Below are positions 2,866 through 34,300 of a DNA stretch of 34,300 nt, one piece after another. The position numbers were made by a program, and so were the translations under genes. Numbering within the stretch: position 1 is the stretch's first letter; the number at the start of each line of letters is the position of its first letter. A model generated the notes under the pieces. The model searched no databases, was not told the origin of the DNA, and was given only the letters and a program-made list of their open reading frames with translations. This stretch comes from an uncultured Opitutia bacterium (GTDB lineage Bacteria; Verrucomicrobiota; Verrucomicrobiia; Opitutales; UBA953): positions 1 to 34,300 of the forward strand of contig CAIPVK010000141.1 in assembly GCA_903868455.1 (NCBI GenBank). The letters are read 5' to 3'.

Positions 2866-4791
2866 TCAGGGGGCGCGGCGGGCGGCGTCCTTGCCGGCCC
2901 AGGCGAGGAGGCCGTCGACCTGGGCGCGGGCGGCGGCGCGGGCGGCGGCGAGTCGGTCGGGGTCGTCGACCGCGACGCGGGCGAAGCCGTAGAACTTGAC
3001 CTTGGGCTCGGTGCCCGAGGGGCGGATGCCGAGGCGGCGGCCGTCGGCGAGGTCGACGAGGAGGAAGTCCTCGCGGGGAAGGAACTCGCCGTCGGCGTCC
3101 GTGGCCGAGCCGTCGGCGAGGTCCGTCACGGCGACGACCGCGGATCCGTCGACCTCGGCCGGGGGCGAGGCGCGCCAGGAGGCGAGCAGCTTGCGGATGG
3201 AGGCCGCGCCCGTCGCGCCCTCGCGGGCGAGGTTGAGGAGCCCCTCGGCGTGGGCCCCGTGACGCAGGTGGAGGGCGTCGAGGGCGTCGGCCAGCGTGCG
3301 GCCGCGCGCGCGGAGGGCCGCGGCGTACTCCGCCAGGAGGACGGCCGAGGCGTTGGCGTCCTTATCGCGCACGCCGTCGTCGGCGAGGTAGCCGTGGCTC
3401 TCCTCGAGGCCGATGAGGAAGAGGGTGGAGTGGCGGAGGGCGAGGGGGGCGCGACGGCGCAGGGGCAGGCCGGGCGCCTCCGGGCCGGCGCGCTCGGCGA
3501 GGCGGGCGGCCCAGCGCTCGGCCTTGCCCGCGATCCACTTGAACCCGACGAGCGTGCCGACGCAGCGCACGCCGTGGCGCGCGCAGAGGGCGTCGACGAG
3601 CGGGGTGGTGACGACCGACTTCACGACCGCGGCGGCGGGCGAGCCCTCCGGGGGCAGGATGCCCGCGTCCTTGAGCGAGGACAGGCGGTGCTCGCAGAGG
3701 AGGGCCGCGATCTCGTTGCCCGTCAGGACGCGGTACCCGTCGCCGACCCGGATGGCCGCGCCGACGCGGTCGGCGTCGGGGTCCGTGGCCAAGGCGAGGT
3801 CGGCGCCCTCGCGCGCGGCCTGGGCGAGCGCGAGCGCGAAGGCCTCGGGGTTCTCGGGGTTGGGCGAGCGGACGGTGGGGAAGGCGCCGTCGTGCTCGGC
3901 CTGCTCGGCGACGAGCGCGGGCTCCACGCCGAGCCGGCGAAGGGCGGGGACGACCATGACGTCGCCGGTGCCGTGCAGGTTGGTGAAGACGACGCGGGGG
4001 GCGTGCCGGCGCAGGACCTCGGGATCGGCCACGCCCGCGCACAGGCGGTCGAGGTAGGCGGCCTCGGCGGAGGCGGGAACGGGGCGCGCGGCCGAGCGGT
4101 CGGCGGCGGCCAGGGCCGCGACCGCGCCGGGGCCGAGCGCCTCGACGCGGGCGACGATCGCGGCGTCGTGGGGCGGCAGGACCTGGCCGCCGTCGCCGAG
4201 GTAGCACTTGAAGCCGTTGTCGTGGGGCGGGTTGTGGCTGGCGGTGATGACGACGCCGGCGTCGGCGCCGAGATGCCGGACGGTGAAGCTGAGCTGCGGC
4301 GTGGAGCGCGGGCCGTCGAACAGCCACGCCTCGCCGCCGAGGGCGCACCAGGCCGCGGCGACCGACTCGGCGAACGCGCGCGAGAAGTGCCGGACGTCGT
4401 GGGCGACGACCAGGCGCGGGGCGGCCTTGCCGAGCGACGCGAGATGGCCGTGCAGGCCGGCGGTGGCGCGGATCAGGTTGGTCTCGTTCAGGCAGGCGGC
4501 GCCGACGGCGGGATGGCGGGGCGCCGAGCCCGCGGGGGCGTCGCCGCGCTCGGAGGGAGCCACGACCTTGCCGATGGTCCTGCCGCGCATGCCGCCCGTG
4601 CCGAAGGCCACGCCCTTGTAGAAGCGGTCCTCGAGCTCGGACCATTCGCCGGCGTCGGCGAGCTCGGCCACGGCGGCGGCGGCCCAGGCGGGCAGGCCCT
4701 CGGCGCCGAGCCAGAGCCTCAGGTTGGCGAGGGCGGCGGGGGACAGCTTGCCGGAGGACTCGAGGCGGGCGAGGAGGGCGGCGGGGGACAT
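2866..4791 (-). CDS. Phosphoglucomutase/phosphomannomutase family protein (alpha-D-phosphohexomutase)
   Basis: GTGGMRGRTIGKV, VVITASHNPPHDNGFKCYLGDGGQV, ATDPDADRVG, FLIGLEESHGY, RPSGTEPKVKFYG. Start taken at the internal Met (MSPAALLARL); the ORF is open to 4827. Confidence 0.93.
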   Translation of the reverse strand: MSPAALLARLESSGKLSPAALANLRLWLGAEGLPAWAAAAVAELADAGEWSELEDRFYKGVAFGTGGMRGRTIGKVVAPSERGDAPAGSAPRHPAVGAACLNETNLIRATAGLHGHLASLGKAAPRLVVAHDVRHFSRAFAESVAAAWCALGGEAWLFDGPRSTPQLSFTVRHLGADAGVVITASHNPPHDNGFKCYLGDGGQVLPPHDAAIVARVEALGPGAVAALAAADRSAARPVPASAEAAYLDRLCAGVADPEVLRRHAPRVVFTNLHGTGDVMVVPALRRLGVEPALVAEQAEHDGAFPTVRSPNPENPEAFALALAQAAREGADLALATDPDADRVGAAIRVGDGYRVLTGNEIAALLCEHRLSSLKDAGILPPEGSPAAAVVKSVVTTPLVDALCARHGVRCVGTLVGFKWIAGKAERWAARLAERAGPEAPGLPLRRRAPLALRHSTLFLIGLEESHGYLADDGVRDKDANASAVLLAEYAAALRARGRTLADALDALHLRHGAHAEGLLNLAREGATGAASIRKLLASWRASPPAEVDGSAVVAVTDLADGSATDADGEFLPREDFLLVDLADGRRLGIRPSGTEPKVKFYGFARVAVDDPDRLAAARAAARAQVDGLLAWAGKDAARRAP

Positions 4792-7353: not shown

Positions 7354-8820
7354 ATGGCCGACCGCGACGACTTCCGCGCCGCGCGCCACGAGCGCCGGCT
7401 CAACCGCTGGCTCCAGGCCGTCCTCGCGCTGGCCCTGGCCGTCGGCCTCAACCTGGTCGCGAGCCAGCCGGGCTTCCGCTGGCGGGCGGACCTGACGGAG
7501 GACCGCCGCCACTCGCTGGCGACCGAGTCGTCCGCCCTGCTCGCCGAGATGGGCGGGCGCGCGCCCGAGGGCGAGGCGGCGTGGGCGACCCTGGCCGTGG
7601 TGGAGGTGCCCGAGGGCGTCCTGGACCCCGCGGCCGAGCGCCGGCTGGCCCGGCTCGTCGACGCGGTGGAGCGCGGCTCCGCGGGCTGGCTGCGGGTGGC
7701 GCGCCCCGGCGCGGGCTCGGGGCCCGCCCTCACGGAGCTGGCGGCGCGGCACGGGCCGCTCCCGCCCGACGCCGCGGTGGTGCTGGCCTGCGGGCCGCGC
7801 CTGCGCGCGCTCGGGGTGGCCGAGCTCGGCGGCCTCGCCGAGGCGGGCCGGCTCGAGGAGGCGATCCTCTCGGCGCTGGTCGAGGTGACGGACGAGCGCG
7901 CGCTCGTCGCCTACGTCGTCCGCGGCCACGGCGAGCTCTCGGCCGAGGACTCCTCGCCCGCGCGCGGCATGAGCCAGCTGGCGCGCCAGCTGCGCCTGGC
8001 CAACGTCGAGCTCCGCCCCCTGCTGCTGACGGGACCCGTCCCGCGCGACGCCGGGCTCGTCATCGTCGCCGGCCCCGTGGCGGCGTTCGCGCCGGCGGAG
8101 GCGGAGGTCCTCCGGTCCTACCTCCACGACCGCAACGGCCGCGCGCTCCTGCTGCTCGACGCCGGCCGCGAGCACGGCCTCGACGGGTTGCTCGAGTCGT
8201 GGGCGGTGTTCTCGCCCGACGCGGAGGCGCGGGAGACCGACGCCTCGCGGCGCCTGCCCGACGGCGACATCGCCGTGCGCAACCTCGACTCCAAGCTCCA
8301 CCCCGTCGCCCAAGTCCTGGCCGACCTCGACTTGCCGCTCGTCGCCGGCCGCCTGCGGCCCGTGCAGTTCGACGTGGGCAGCGCGCCCGACTCGACCCTC
8401 GCCGTCTGGCAGATGGCCTACACCTCCGCCGAGTCCTGGGGCGAGGCCGACCCGCGGCGCGAGCCGGCGCGCTTCGACCCGGCGCGCGACTTCCCCGGCC
8501 CGCTCTGCGTGGCCGTCGCGGCGGAACGCCAGGCGGGCATCGGCGGAGGGGCGGGCGGGCGGCTGGTCGTCATCGGCTCCTCGGACCTCGCCGCGAACGC
8601 GCGCCTCGCGCGCGGCGGCAACCGCGCCCTGCTGCTCCAGGCCGTCCACTGGCTGGGCGGCCGCGAGCGCCGGGCAGCCGTGCCCCCGCGCCCGCTCGAG
8701 CGTTTCGCCCTGACGGCGACCGCGTCGCAGATGGGCACGCTGGCCTGGAGGCTCGCCCTGCCCTGCCTGGCGGTGGCGGCGGTCGGGCTTGCCGTCACGG
8801 CGTGGCGGCGCAGGAATTGA
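7354..8820 (+). CDS. GldG-like auxiliary component of the ABC exporter
   Basis: N-terminal TM, then FRWRADLTEDRRHSLATESSALL (GldG-type start), central receiver-like region, C-terminal TM followed by WRRRN. Confidence 0.75.
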   Translation: MADRDDFRAARHERRLNRWLQAVLALALAVGLNLVASQPGFRWRADLTEDRRHSLATESSALLAEMGGRAPEGEAAWATLAVVEVPEGVLDPAAERRLARLVDAVERGSAGWLRVARPGAGSGPALTELAARHGPLPPDAAVVLACGPRLRALGVAELGGLAEAGRLEEAILSALVEVTDERALVAYVVRGHGELSAEDSSPARGMSQLARQLRLANVELRPLLLTGPVPRDAGLVIVAGPVAAFAPAEAEVLRSYLHDRNGRALLLLDAGREHGLDGLLESWAVFSPDAEARETDASRRLPDGDIAVRNLDSKLHPVAQVLADLDLPLVAGRLRPVQFDVGSAPDSTLAVWQMAYTSAESWGEADPRREPARFDPARDFPGPLCVAVAAERQAGIGGGAGGRLVVIGSSDLAANARLARGGNRALLLQAVHWLGGRERRAAVPPRPLERFALTATASQMGTLAWRLALPCLAVAAVGLAVTAWRRRN

Positions 8821-32524: not shown

Positions 32525-33231
32525 GCTGCGCCTGCGAGCACCTGGCGCTCCGCACGCGGGGCCTCGCCCTGCGCCCGGCGCCGGGCGCGCCGCGGGTCCT
32601 CGAGGGCGCGGACCTCGAGGTGCCCGCGGGCTGCCGCACCGCCCTCGTCGGCCCCAACGGAGCGGGCAAGTCGACGCTCCTGCGCGCGCTCGCGGGGCTC
32701 ACGCCGGCCGACGCAGGGAGCCTCGAGGTCAACGGCGCGCCGCCTCGCGCGGGCCGGGCCGACGTCGCCCTGCTCGCCCAGCGCCCGCGCCTCGCGACCG
32801 GCGTGCCCTGCACGGTCGGCCGCCTGGCGGAGATGGGTCGGCTCGGTCGCGCCGCCTGGGGATTCTCCCTCGGGCGCGACGATCGCGAGCGCGCCCGGCG
32901 CGCCCTCCGGGCGGTGGGCCTCGAGGACCTCGCCGACCGCTCCGTGGCGACGCTCTCCGGCGGCCAGCTGCAGCGCGCGCTGGTCGCCCGCGCGCTCGCC
33001 CAGGGCGCGACGCTCCTTCTGCTGGACGAGCCCTACGTGGGGCTCGACGCGGCGAGCCGGCGCGCGCTCGACGAGCTGCTCTTCGGCCCGGCGCTCGCCG
33101 GGACCACCGTGGTCGTGTCGACGCACGACGCCGCCGACCTGCCGCGCTTCGACCGCATCCTCGCCATCGGCGACGGGCGGGCCGCGGTCACCCTGGCCTG
33201 CGACGGCCGCCACCCGCACCGCCATGCCTGA
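32521..33231 (+). CDS. Metal ABC transporter ATP-binding protein (ZnuC family)
   Basis: ATG in an ATGA overlap with the upstream gene; Walker A ALVGPNGAGKSTLLRALAGL; LSGGQLQRALVARALAQGATLLLLDEPYVGLD; STHDAADL. Confidence 0.92.
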   Translation: MSCACEHLALRTRGLALRPAPGAPRVLEGADLEVPAGCRTALVGPNGAGKSTLLRALAGLTPADAGSLEVNGAPPRAGRADVALLAQRPRLATGVPCTVGRLAEMGRLGRAAWGFSLGRDDRERARRALRAVGLEDLADRSVATLSGGQLQRALVARALAQGATLLLLDEPYVGLDAASRRALDELLFGPALAGTTVVVSTHDAADLPRFDRILAIGDGRAAVTLACDGRHPHRHA

Positions 33232-34033
33232 CGCCGGCGCCCTCTCGCACCCGTTCATGCAGCGCGCGCTCCTCGCCGCGGCGCTCTGCGGCGTCGCCTG
33301 CGCGTGCATCGGCACCCACCTCGTCGCGCGGCGCATGACGTTCGTCGGCTCCGCGCTCACGCACACGCTCCTGCCGGGCATCGCGGCGGCCTTCCTGCTG
33401 GGGCTGCCGCCGCACCTCGGGGCGCTCGCGGCGGCGGCGGCGACGGCGGCGCTCATCGCGCTCGCGGGAGGGAAGCGCGGCGGCGGCGAGGACGCGGCGA
33501 TCGGCGTCGCGCAGTCCGCGCTCTTCGCCGCGGGGGTCGTCCTGATGGCCTCGAGCGGCTCTTGGCGGGACTTCGGCGGGATGCTCTTCGGCAGCGTGCT
33601 CGGCGTGGGCGAGGGCGACCTCGCGTGGACGGGCGTCCTCGCCGCGGGGACGGTCGCGCTCCTGCTCGCCGGCCACCGCGCGCTCGAGGCCTCGGCGGTG
33701 GACGAGGACTACGCGCGGGCCGCCGGGCTGCGCCCCGCCCTGCTCCGCCTGGGGCTCGTGCTGCTCGCGGGCGCCGCGGCCGCCTCGGCCGTCAGCCTGC
33801 TCGGCGCGATGCTCACCTCCGCCCTGCTCATCGTGCCCGCCGCGGGCGGCCTGCTCCTCGGGCGCAGCCTGGCGGGCGCCATGCTCTGGGCCTCGGTCAT
33901 CGCCGTCGCCGGCTCGGCCGCGGGGCTCGTCGCCTCCTACCACGTCGAGGCCCTGCCCTCGGGCGCGGCGATGGTCGCCGGCTGCTGCGCGGGCTTCGCG
34001 CTCGCGCGACTCTGGCGCGCGCTGCGCGGCTGA
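33224..34033 (+). CDS. Metal ABC transporter permease (ZnuB family)
   Basis: HPFMQRALLAAALCGVACACIGTHLVARRMTFVGSALTHTLLPGIAAAFLLG, multi-TM; 8-bp overlap with the ATPase gene. Confidence 0.92.
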   Translation: MPDAGALSHPFMQRALLAAALCGVACACIGTHLVARRMTFVGSALTHTLLPGIAAAFLLGLPPHLGALAAAAATAALIALAGGKRGGGEDAAIGVAQSALFAAGVVLMASSGSWRDFGGMLFGSVLGVGEGDLAWTGVLAAGTVALLLAGHRALEASAVDEDYARAAGLRPALLRLGLVLLAGAAAASAVSLLGAMLTSALLIVPAAGGLLLGRSLAGAMLWASVIAVAGSAAGLVASYHVEALPSGAAMVAGCCAGFALARLWRALRG

Positions 34034-34039
34034 TGGAGA

Positions 34040-34143
34040 CTGCCGAGTCTCTAAGCTTCTAAGTGGCTGAGTCCCTAAGTCGCTTGGTCACTTAGCTACT
34101 TAGCAACTTAGTCTCTTCGTCTCTTAGTCTCTTCGTCCTTCTT
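34040..34143. repeat. Degenerate 8-nt-period array (nnn-CTWAG) arranged as an imperfect palindrome
   Basis: Units from 34048: tctctaag cttctaag tggctgag tccctaag tcgcttgg tcacttag ctacttag caacttag tctcttcg tctcttag tctcttcg tccttctt. Arms 34060-34080 and 34090-34110 are complementary at 17 of 21 positions. Confidence 0.85.
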
Positions 34144-34151
34144 CCCCCTTC

Positions 34152-34300
34152 TCAGCGCAAGCTGAGCGGCGGGCCTAGCACCTCGCGCGCGACCACCGCG
34201 CGGCGCAGCGCGGCGCGCGTGGCGAAGTCGCGGGCGTGGGCGGAGGGCGCGCGGCGCGCGACGGAAGGGGCGACCGAGGCCGCGGGGGCGGGCGGCGGCG
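34152..34300 (-). CDS. Partial CDS, C-terminus only (N-terminus beyond window), unknown function
   Basis: Minus-strand frame open to the window edge, ending ...SAHARDFATRAALRRAVVAREVLGPPLSLR*; not in the ORF track because it is truncated. Confidence 0.5.
   Translation of the reverse strand, partial: PPPAPAASVAPSVARRAPSAHARDFATRAALRRAVVAREVLGPPLSLR

Follow-up and report, generated by a model that had tools for sequence, protein, structure and literature searches.

For years there have been scattered reports of short, degenerate tandem arrays at the borders of bacterial genes, with no function assigned. In Xanthomonas, heptamer arrays of the type GGGAATC/(GGGANTN)n were read as G-quadruplex repeats (Rehm et al. 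2015, PMC4692102). They combine a fixed core with an N-T-N spacer, mostly in four units, are intergenic and lie close to the gene from which they are read away; many form inverted, convergent pairs, they are under-represented between divergent genes, and they vary widely between close relatives. Cyanobacterial STRR heptanucleotide repeats, which include the P6b hairpin of the Nostoc tRNA-Leu intron, are short, degenerate tandem repeats, mostly intergenic, hairpin-forming and of fast turnover, for which a role in transcript stability or termination was suggested (PMC2670836, PMC3488679). TAACTGA heptamer repeats were described in Beggiatoaceae, Cyanobacteria and some Bacteroidetes (MacGregor 2015, PMC4679880). 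The arrays considered here are built from 8-nt units with the core CTRAG, and no publication describing this unit was found in the open-access literature, sequence-based searches included. Units with the core CTAAG or CTGAG are called R-type; Y-type units, with CTTAG, CTTGG or CTTCG, are their reverse complement.

Nearly all of the Xanthomonas features recur in the CTRAG arrays: a core with a degenerate spacer, intergenic position, outward reading, inverted pairs, rarity between divergent genes and variation between close relatives. The differences are that the unit has 8 rather than 7 nt, that the lineages are unrelated, that the order of R-type before Y-type units is absolute and that the register runs through the junction in some arrays. 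A G-tract of three or more is missing; the core CTRAG has none and the spacers are rarely GGG. As CTAAG lacks a G-tract, G-quadruplexes are not the general reason for such arrays. With the STRRs, the CTRAG arrays share degenerate, hairpin-folding tandem repeats with fast turnover, whereas the STRR unit has 7 nt and another sequence, and outward polarity and matched edge cores are not stated in the passages of the STRR papers that were compared. The arrays belong to neither family, for want of a G-tract in the one case and of the unit length in the other, and their working likeness to both is strong. Like the TAACTGA repeats, they are intergenic, patchy over distant phyla, change in steps of one unit and carry stops in three frames, and relatives with shorter gaps lack them; TAACTGA, in contrast, is one perfect heptamer that lacks a variable spacer; its repeats are mostly in direct orientation, immediately before start codons, with a single inverted case in the main genome (PMC4679880). 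What the arrays have in common with REP/BIME elements with RAYT is that palindromes are scattered over intergenic regions, frequently as inverted pairs; REPs are single palindromes of 20-40 nt with tagged feet, whereas the CTRAG arrays are tandem octamers which the family PF01797 does not track.

The window, i.e. the whole 34,300-nt stretch of DNA that was analysed, comes from an uncultured Opitutia bacterium and has its array near one end. The array adjoins an ORF of 269 aa (33224-34033, forward strand, stop TGA at 34031-34033) for a znuB-like metal ABC transporter permease, with orthologues in 5/5 sister genomes at 59-74% identity; the name, taken from the original prediction and from the position after an ABC ATPase ORF, is putative. 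The facing gene is represented by its 3' end on the reverse strand (34152-34298) and runs past the end of the contig; the two genes are truly convergent all the same, since the same gene stands in the same place in the readable sister genomes (homologous stretch in L029-L032). Between the two convergent stops lies an inserted gap of 118 nt (34034-34151), as seen by direct reading and from the sister genomes. Direct reading of 34051-34135 gave 11 units of 8 nt in a single unbroken register, each made of a fixed 5-nt core and a changeable 3-nt spacer; in order, these are CTAAGCTT CTAAGTGG CTGAGTCC CTAAGTCG and, beyond the junction, CTTGGTCA CTTAGCTA CTTAGCAA CTTAGTCT CTTCGTCT CTTAGTCT CTTCGTCC. 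On the forward strand, the left arm (34051-34079) contains four R-type units (cores CTAAG, CTAAG, CTGAG and CTAAG) and the right arm (34083-34135) seven Y-type units (CTTGG, CTTAG, CTTAG, CTTAG, CTTCG, CTTAG and CTTCG). The junction triplet TCG (34080-34082), across which the 8-nt register is continuous, is the apex triloop of the minimum-energy hairpin, and a pyrimidine-rich tail (34136-34151) leads from the array to the convergent stop codon. CTWAG-N3-CTWAG with up to one mismatch has 10 matches across the window, every one inside the array, against an expectation of 0.13 from dinucleotide shuffles of the window (maximum 2). The GC content is 0.49 in the array and 0.74 in the window. The exact register and the shuffle control confirm the original prediction of an 8-nt periodic CTAAG/CTTAG array in a convergent gap, and the sharp difference in composition it had noted is also found; of its tandem array of about 12 units the tandem array stands and the number becomes 11.

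In the sister genomes read, the stops that are 118 nt apart here are separated by 0-5 nt. The same two convergent genes end stop against stop in G002 (CTGATCAG), and in three other sister genomes as TAA/TTTA with a gap of a few nucleotides; the comparison used these genomes, and the fifth locus was left out. A second case was found on contig C54, where a gap of about 200 nt with an array corresponds to a pyrimidine-rich sister gap of about 55 nt without one. Contig C65 was not counted among the gains, because the best match of its gene in G002 shares just 56% identity and could be paralogous. Among the five sister species, none has four exact units, and two-mismatch matches did not exceed the reversed control. 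In a sample of 390 genomes of the phylum, arrays with variable spacers occurred in no other genome and plain identical octamers in three others. The array next to znuB is, as judged from these sequence comparisons, a lineage-specific gain that arose by insertion or expansion exactly between two abutting stop codons.

Similar arrays occur elsewhere in the same genome. In a census made by pattern searches, a three-core pattern with two mismatches gave 55 matches, against 1 for the reversed pattern. About eight further array sites were recognized, on contigs C5, C54, C65, C111, C137, C154 and C189, where they occupy gaps between likely genes; a single two-mismatch match on C21 is probably a chance one. 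Wherever both arms are present in this genome (six loci), R-type units precede Y-type units. The contigs tested are native, as an AlaRS on C189 and a protein on C54 are 99% and 88% identical, respectively, to those of sister G002. A dispersed repeat family, one of the possibilities raised in the original prediction, is thus confirmed both here and in distant bacteria, so that the test named in that prediction as able to overturn it did not do so. On C5, the arms are about 330 bp apart and flank a tRNA-Arg (CCT). Several inverted repeats, built from different short units and set one inside another in mirrored order, enclose this tRNA over about 640 bp (L016 3694-4336). They include purine/pyrimidine inverted repeats around the arms, for example 3718-3747 with 4276-4305 and 3827-3855 with 4147-4175, both pairs being 90% complementary. 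Low-complexity purine or pyrimidine repeats such as GGGATGAAGGGATTGAAGG (8-9 nt) and CTCCCCACTCCTCACTCCCCG (7 nt) were also observed at L019 1370-1440, L022 4700-4765, L016 4230-4330 and in other gaps of this genome, the left side of these gaps being purine-rich and the right side pyrimidine-rich.

Scanning one genome per species gave at least 120 stretches. Among the matches listed, most were from Flavobacterium; others came from MAGs of Gastranaerophilales and Bacteroidales, and several were plain octamer repeats. In Duganella, Psychrobacter, Hymenobacter, G375 and others the octamers are plain and their spacers identical; these ordinary repeats were set aside as a different thing. Whole-genome counts with one mismatch were 186-349 per genome in Flavobacterium (control 9-42), 211 in the Bacteroidales MAG RGIG4154 (control 29) and 155 and 105 in Gastranaerophilales (controls 0 and 0); the lineages with arrays amount to few independent cases. 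Arrays of the Bacteroidales MAG resemble that of the window, with R units passing straight into Y units in the same 8-nt register. In Gastranaerophilales the units are present, and pairing and position are less regular. Several minor observations were made in these genomes. At four RGIG4154 loci (L085, L295, L297 and L299), the flank TGGGTGAAGTAG stands beside the array, as if a repeated gene end or a larger element were common to them. A Gastranaerophilales MAG has a 99-bp tandem repeat with CTAAGATACTAAGGCACTAAGATACTAAGAAG in each unit (L092 1-330). In a Thermoanaerobaculales MAG (L123, about 7680-7860), an CACGAAGACACGAAG array grades into CACTAAGACACTAAGG with the 8-nt period kept, so that the core goes from CGAAG to CTAAG within one array.

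The patchy distribution over phyla, the absence from sister species, the clean gains at znuB and C54 and the fixed orientation of the ends would all suit miniature mobile elements that a transposase inserts into gaps, with the tandem octamers as their terminal inverted repeats. This origin is nevertheless improbable: there are no identical copies, the spacers differ in every copy, no target duplication was seen at znuB, with few empty sites compared, and the arms bracket native content, namely ordinary terminators in Flavobacterium and the tRNA-Arg in L016. Nor did PF01797 (Y1/tyrosine transposase) correlate with the arrays, and a RAYT/REP origin was rejected on this ground; the own genome has PF01797 matches only below the cut-off, while array-free sister genomes have matches above it. 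A phage origin was likewise set aside, with only 29 viral contigs carrying four exact R units.

Comparison of many arrays revealed strict rules. Unit spacing peaks at 8, 16, 24 and 32 only, and the core positions are C (97%), T (96%), A (83%; G 14%), A (98%) and G (98%). The Flavobacterium arrays mostly have 4-5 units, with T as the middle base in 78% of spacers, and in the Flavobacterium set a T-run follows the arm. The distance of the arms from gene ends, 3' as well as 5', is mostly 0-20 nt, with ORFs called by length only. Of the 120 arms in the Flavobacterium set that stand no more than 30 nt from a gene, 117 read CTRAG outward and 3 towards the gene. Since the strand leaving a gene reads CTRAG-NTN on each side of the gap, the core of one arm is the reverse complement of the core of the other. 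R-then-Y order was found 40:0 at the selected loci, 11:0 in sampled Flavobacterium stretches of two genomes, 13:0 in the Bacteroidales MAG and 71:0 over seven core types; the same order holds for the other unit types, CARAG, TTTCARG (7 nt), TTGTGAA (7 nt), TTTTAGA (7 nt), CACGAATT and CACAGATT. In the sampled Flavobacterium stretches, arms were present in 10/73 convergent, 15/283 tandem and 0/92 divergent gaps; many Flavobacterium loci had been selected for arrays, so only these counts give near-unbiased rates, and the sampled stretches of G058 were chosen partly from matches.

The two edges of a gap also match. The core type is the same on both in 65 of the 75 typed gaps, and the same gap of a sister species can have switched to another core (CAAAG at L090, CACGAATT at L172 and CATAG at L121). 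At L090, L172, L121 and L145, for example, the core changed on both edges together, which is covariation at the level of the helix. A hairpin alone fails to explain the outward CTAAG, since the opposite order would pair equally well. The strict polarity (117:3) is unexplained by pairing and could be explained by a sequence-specific binder, for which CTRAG would be a candidate site, a protein, or an RNA-binding protein, coating 4-5 units and marking the gene border; the mirror symmetry would then follow from each border needing its own outward array. Conservation of 96-98% at the five core positions (the third as A/G) beside free spacers, the exact 8-nt spacing and the usual 4-5 units agree with such an array of binding sites. 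Such a protein-binding array, also raised in the original prediction, is still unlikely, because core types vary between gaps of one genome and switch on both edges together, which would require many proteins under binding and is a direct consequence of pairing; moreover, no candidate protein was found, and the presence of RAYT transposases does not go with that of the arrays.

When orthologous gaps are compared between sister species, identity is 94-99% for the cores (third base 85%), 57-80% for the spacers and 87% for the gene-side (upstream) flank. The last core has the same offset in 92 of 125 orthologous pairs, and 18 of the other 33 differ by multiples of 8. Such changes by unit length, together with the high turnover, the lineage-specific gain and the abundance of other low-complexity inverted repeats in mirrored order in gaps of the own genome, are what functionless products of replication slippage and template-switch copying across the gap would show. 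Under neutrality, however, the cores should not surpass the coding-side flank in conservation when the spacers fail to do so, the inverted order should not be absent from 71 pairs and divergent gaps should not be avoided; purely neutral slippage is hence quite improbable. Another proposal concerns translation: CTAAG has TAA/TAG on opposite strands, and units repeated every 8 nt pass through each frame in turn, which might make the array a six-frame stop cassette for translation from either side. In 17 arms the core does supply the neighbouring gene's own stop codon (distance -4), and CTGAG keeps TGA. Against this, the C and G of the core are conserved as well as TAA, and the same gaps of sister species carry CAAAG/CAGAG or CACGAATT arrays, whose cores are stop-free. 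Stop codons were therefore rejected as the general reason, and the cassette is scarcely credible. Outward polarity, matched edge cores, core switching and lineage-specific gain were hidden from the original prediction, which had a single copy in view.

The pairing of 34060-34080 with 34090-34110 is exactly as claimed, with 17/21 Watson-Crick pairs. The minimum-energy register lies one unit away and pairs 34051-34079 with 34083-34111 around the TCG triloop (22 Watson-Crick and 3 G.U pairs of 29); registers displaced by 8 and 16 nt pair nearly equally well. Folding as RNA, proposed earlier as a check, gave -39.9 kcal/mol for the forward strand (z -4.6, 0/200 shuffles as good) and z -1.2 for the reverse strand. 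In the own genome, C65 and C137 fold with z < -3 on both strands, as does C5, in a stretch that includes a tRNA, and two of the six arrays are little better than shuffles (C54 on both strands, C189 weakly). Shuffling of the spacers leaves the fold energy of own-genome arrays undiminished; the figure for C5 is unusable because of its tRNA. Spacer complementarity was 0.674 within pairs and 0.633 ± 0.015 (sd) in cross-locus pairs, and in junction arrays it was not above shuffles. Spacer covariation was accordingly rejected as proof of structure. With spacer pairing at or barely above chance and shuffling harmless, it is the cores that pair, and the covariation consists in one edge matching the other by its whole core type. 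The palindrome of the original prediction stands, its self-complementarity lying in the cores. On the strand read, the central core pair is 28% Watson-Crick and 51% G.U. Most arrays of the Bacteroidales MAG have G in the left core (CTGAG) or C in the right one (CTCAG), a pattern to be expected of a one-strand RNA stem that tolerates G.U pairs. In Flavobacterium tandem gaps the preference is the opposite (p 0.02), so that a strand-specific G.U preference is taken as a hint only and is not claimed.

No intrinsic terminator (GC-rich stem and T-run) was found at 33900-34300. An ordinary terminator stands next to the array on contig C65, and there and in Flavobacterium the arms lie outside or beside ordinary terminators. 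With no site at the array and real terminators beside arms elsewhere, a simple terminator was rejected, and the suggested bidirectional terminator is unsupported as a general function. Rfam gave no match above the gathering score, the only one being to a microRNA model (18 bits, gathering 89).

The explanation preferred, held tentatively and at slightly less than an even chance, is that of a border repeat: mirrored arrays which gain and lose units by slippage and are selected for a core-paired stem at the end of the transcription unit. Slippage would multiply units into arrays, and selection would keep those which give such a stem across or beside that end. The stem would be a modular hairpin with 5-bp core helices every 8 nt and loosely paired spacers, able to slip by whole units. 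If it forms in cells and acts on the RNA, it may shield transcript 3' ends or slow read-through into the facing gene.

A broader proposal, which is possible and rather more to be doubted, is that gene borders of many unrelated bacteria bear one general mark, a single unnamed system. Its arrays would have outward cores of 4-5 nt with short degenerate spacers and the same core mirrored on the other edge; the core would be exchangeable en bloc, pairing and polarity being kept and not the sequence. CTRAG, CARAG, TTTCARG, CACGAATT and the GGGA of Xanthomonas could be cores within it. The CTRAG variant gives sharp, countable rules for such arrays (outward polarity, matched edges, a conserved core with a fast spacer, avoidance of divergent gaps), and these apply in Flavobacterium, where genetics is possible. 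If en-bloc core switching holds, it would be natural compensatory evolution at the scale of a whole helix, and the hairpin idea would be directly testable. In Flavobacterium, gaps with 7-nt arrays (GTTTCAAGTTTCAGG, AATTGTGAATTGTGA, TTTTAGATTTTAGA and TTGATAGTTGATGG) were also observed at L160, L164, L177, L195, L199, L209 and L211, often with the reverse complement at the opposite edge of the gap.
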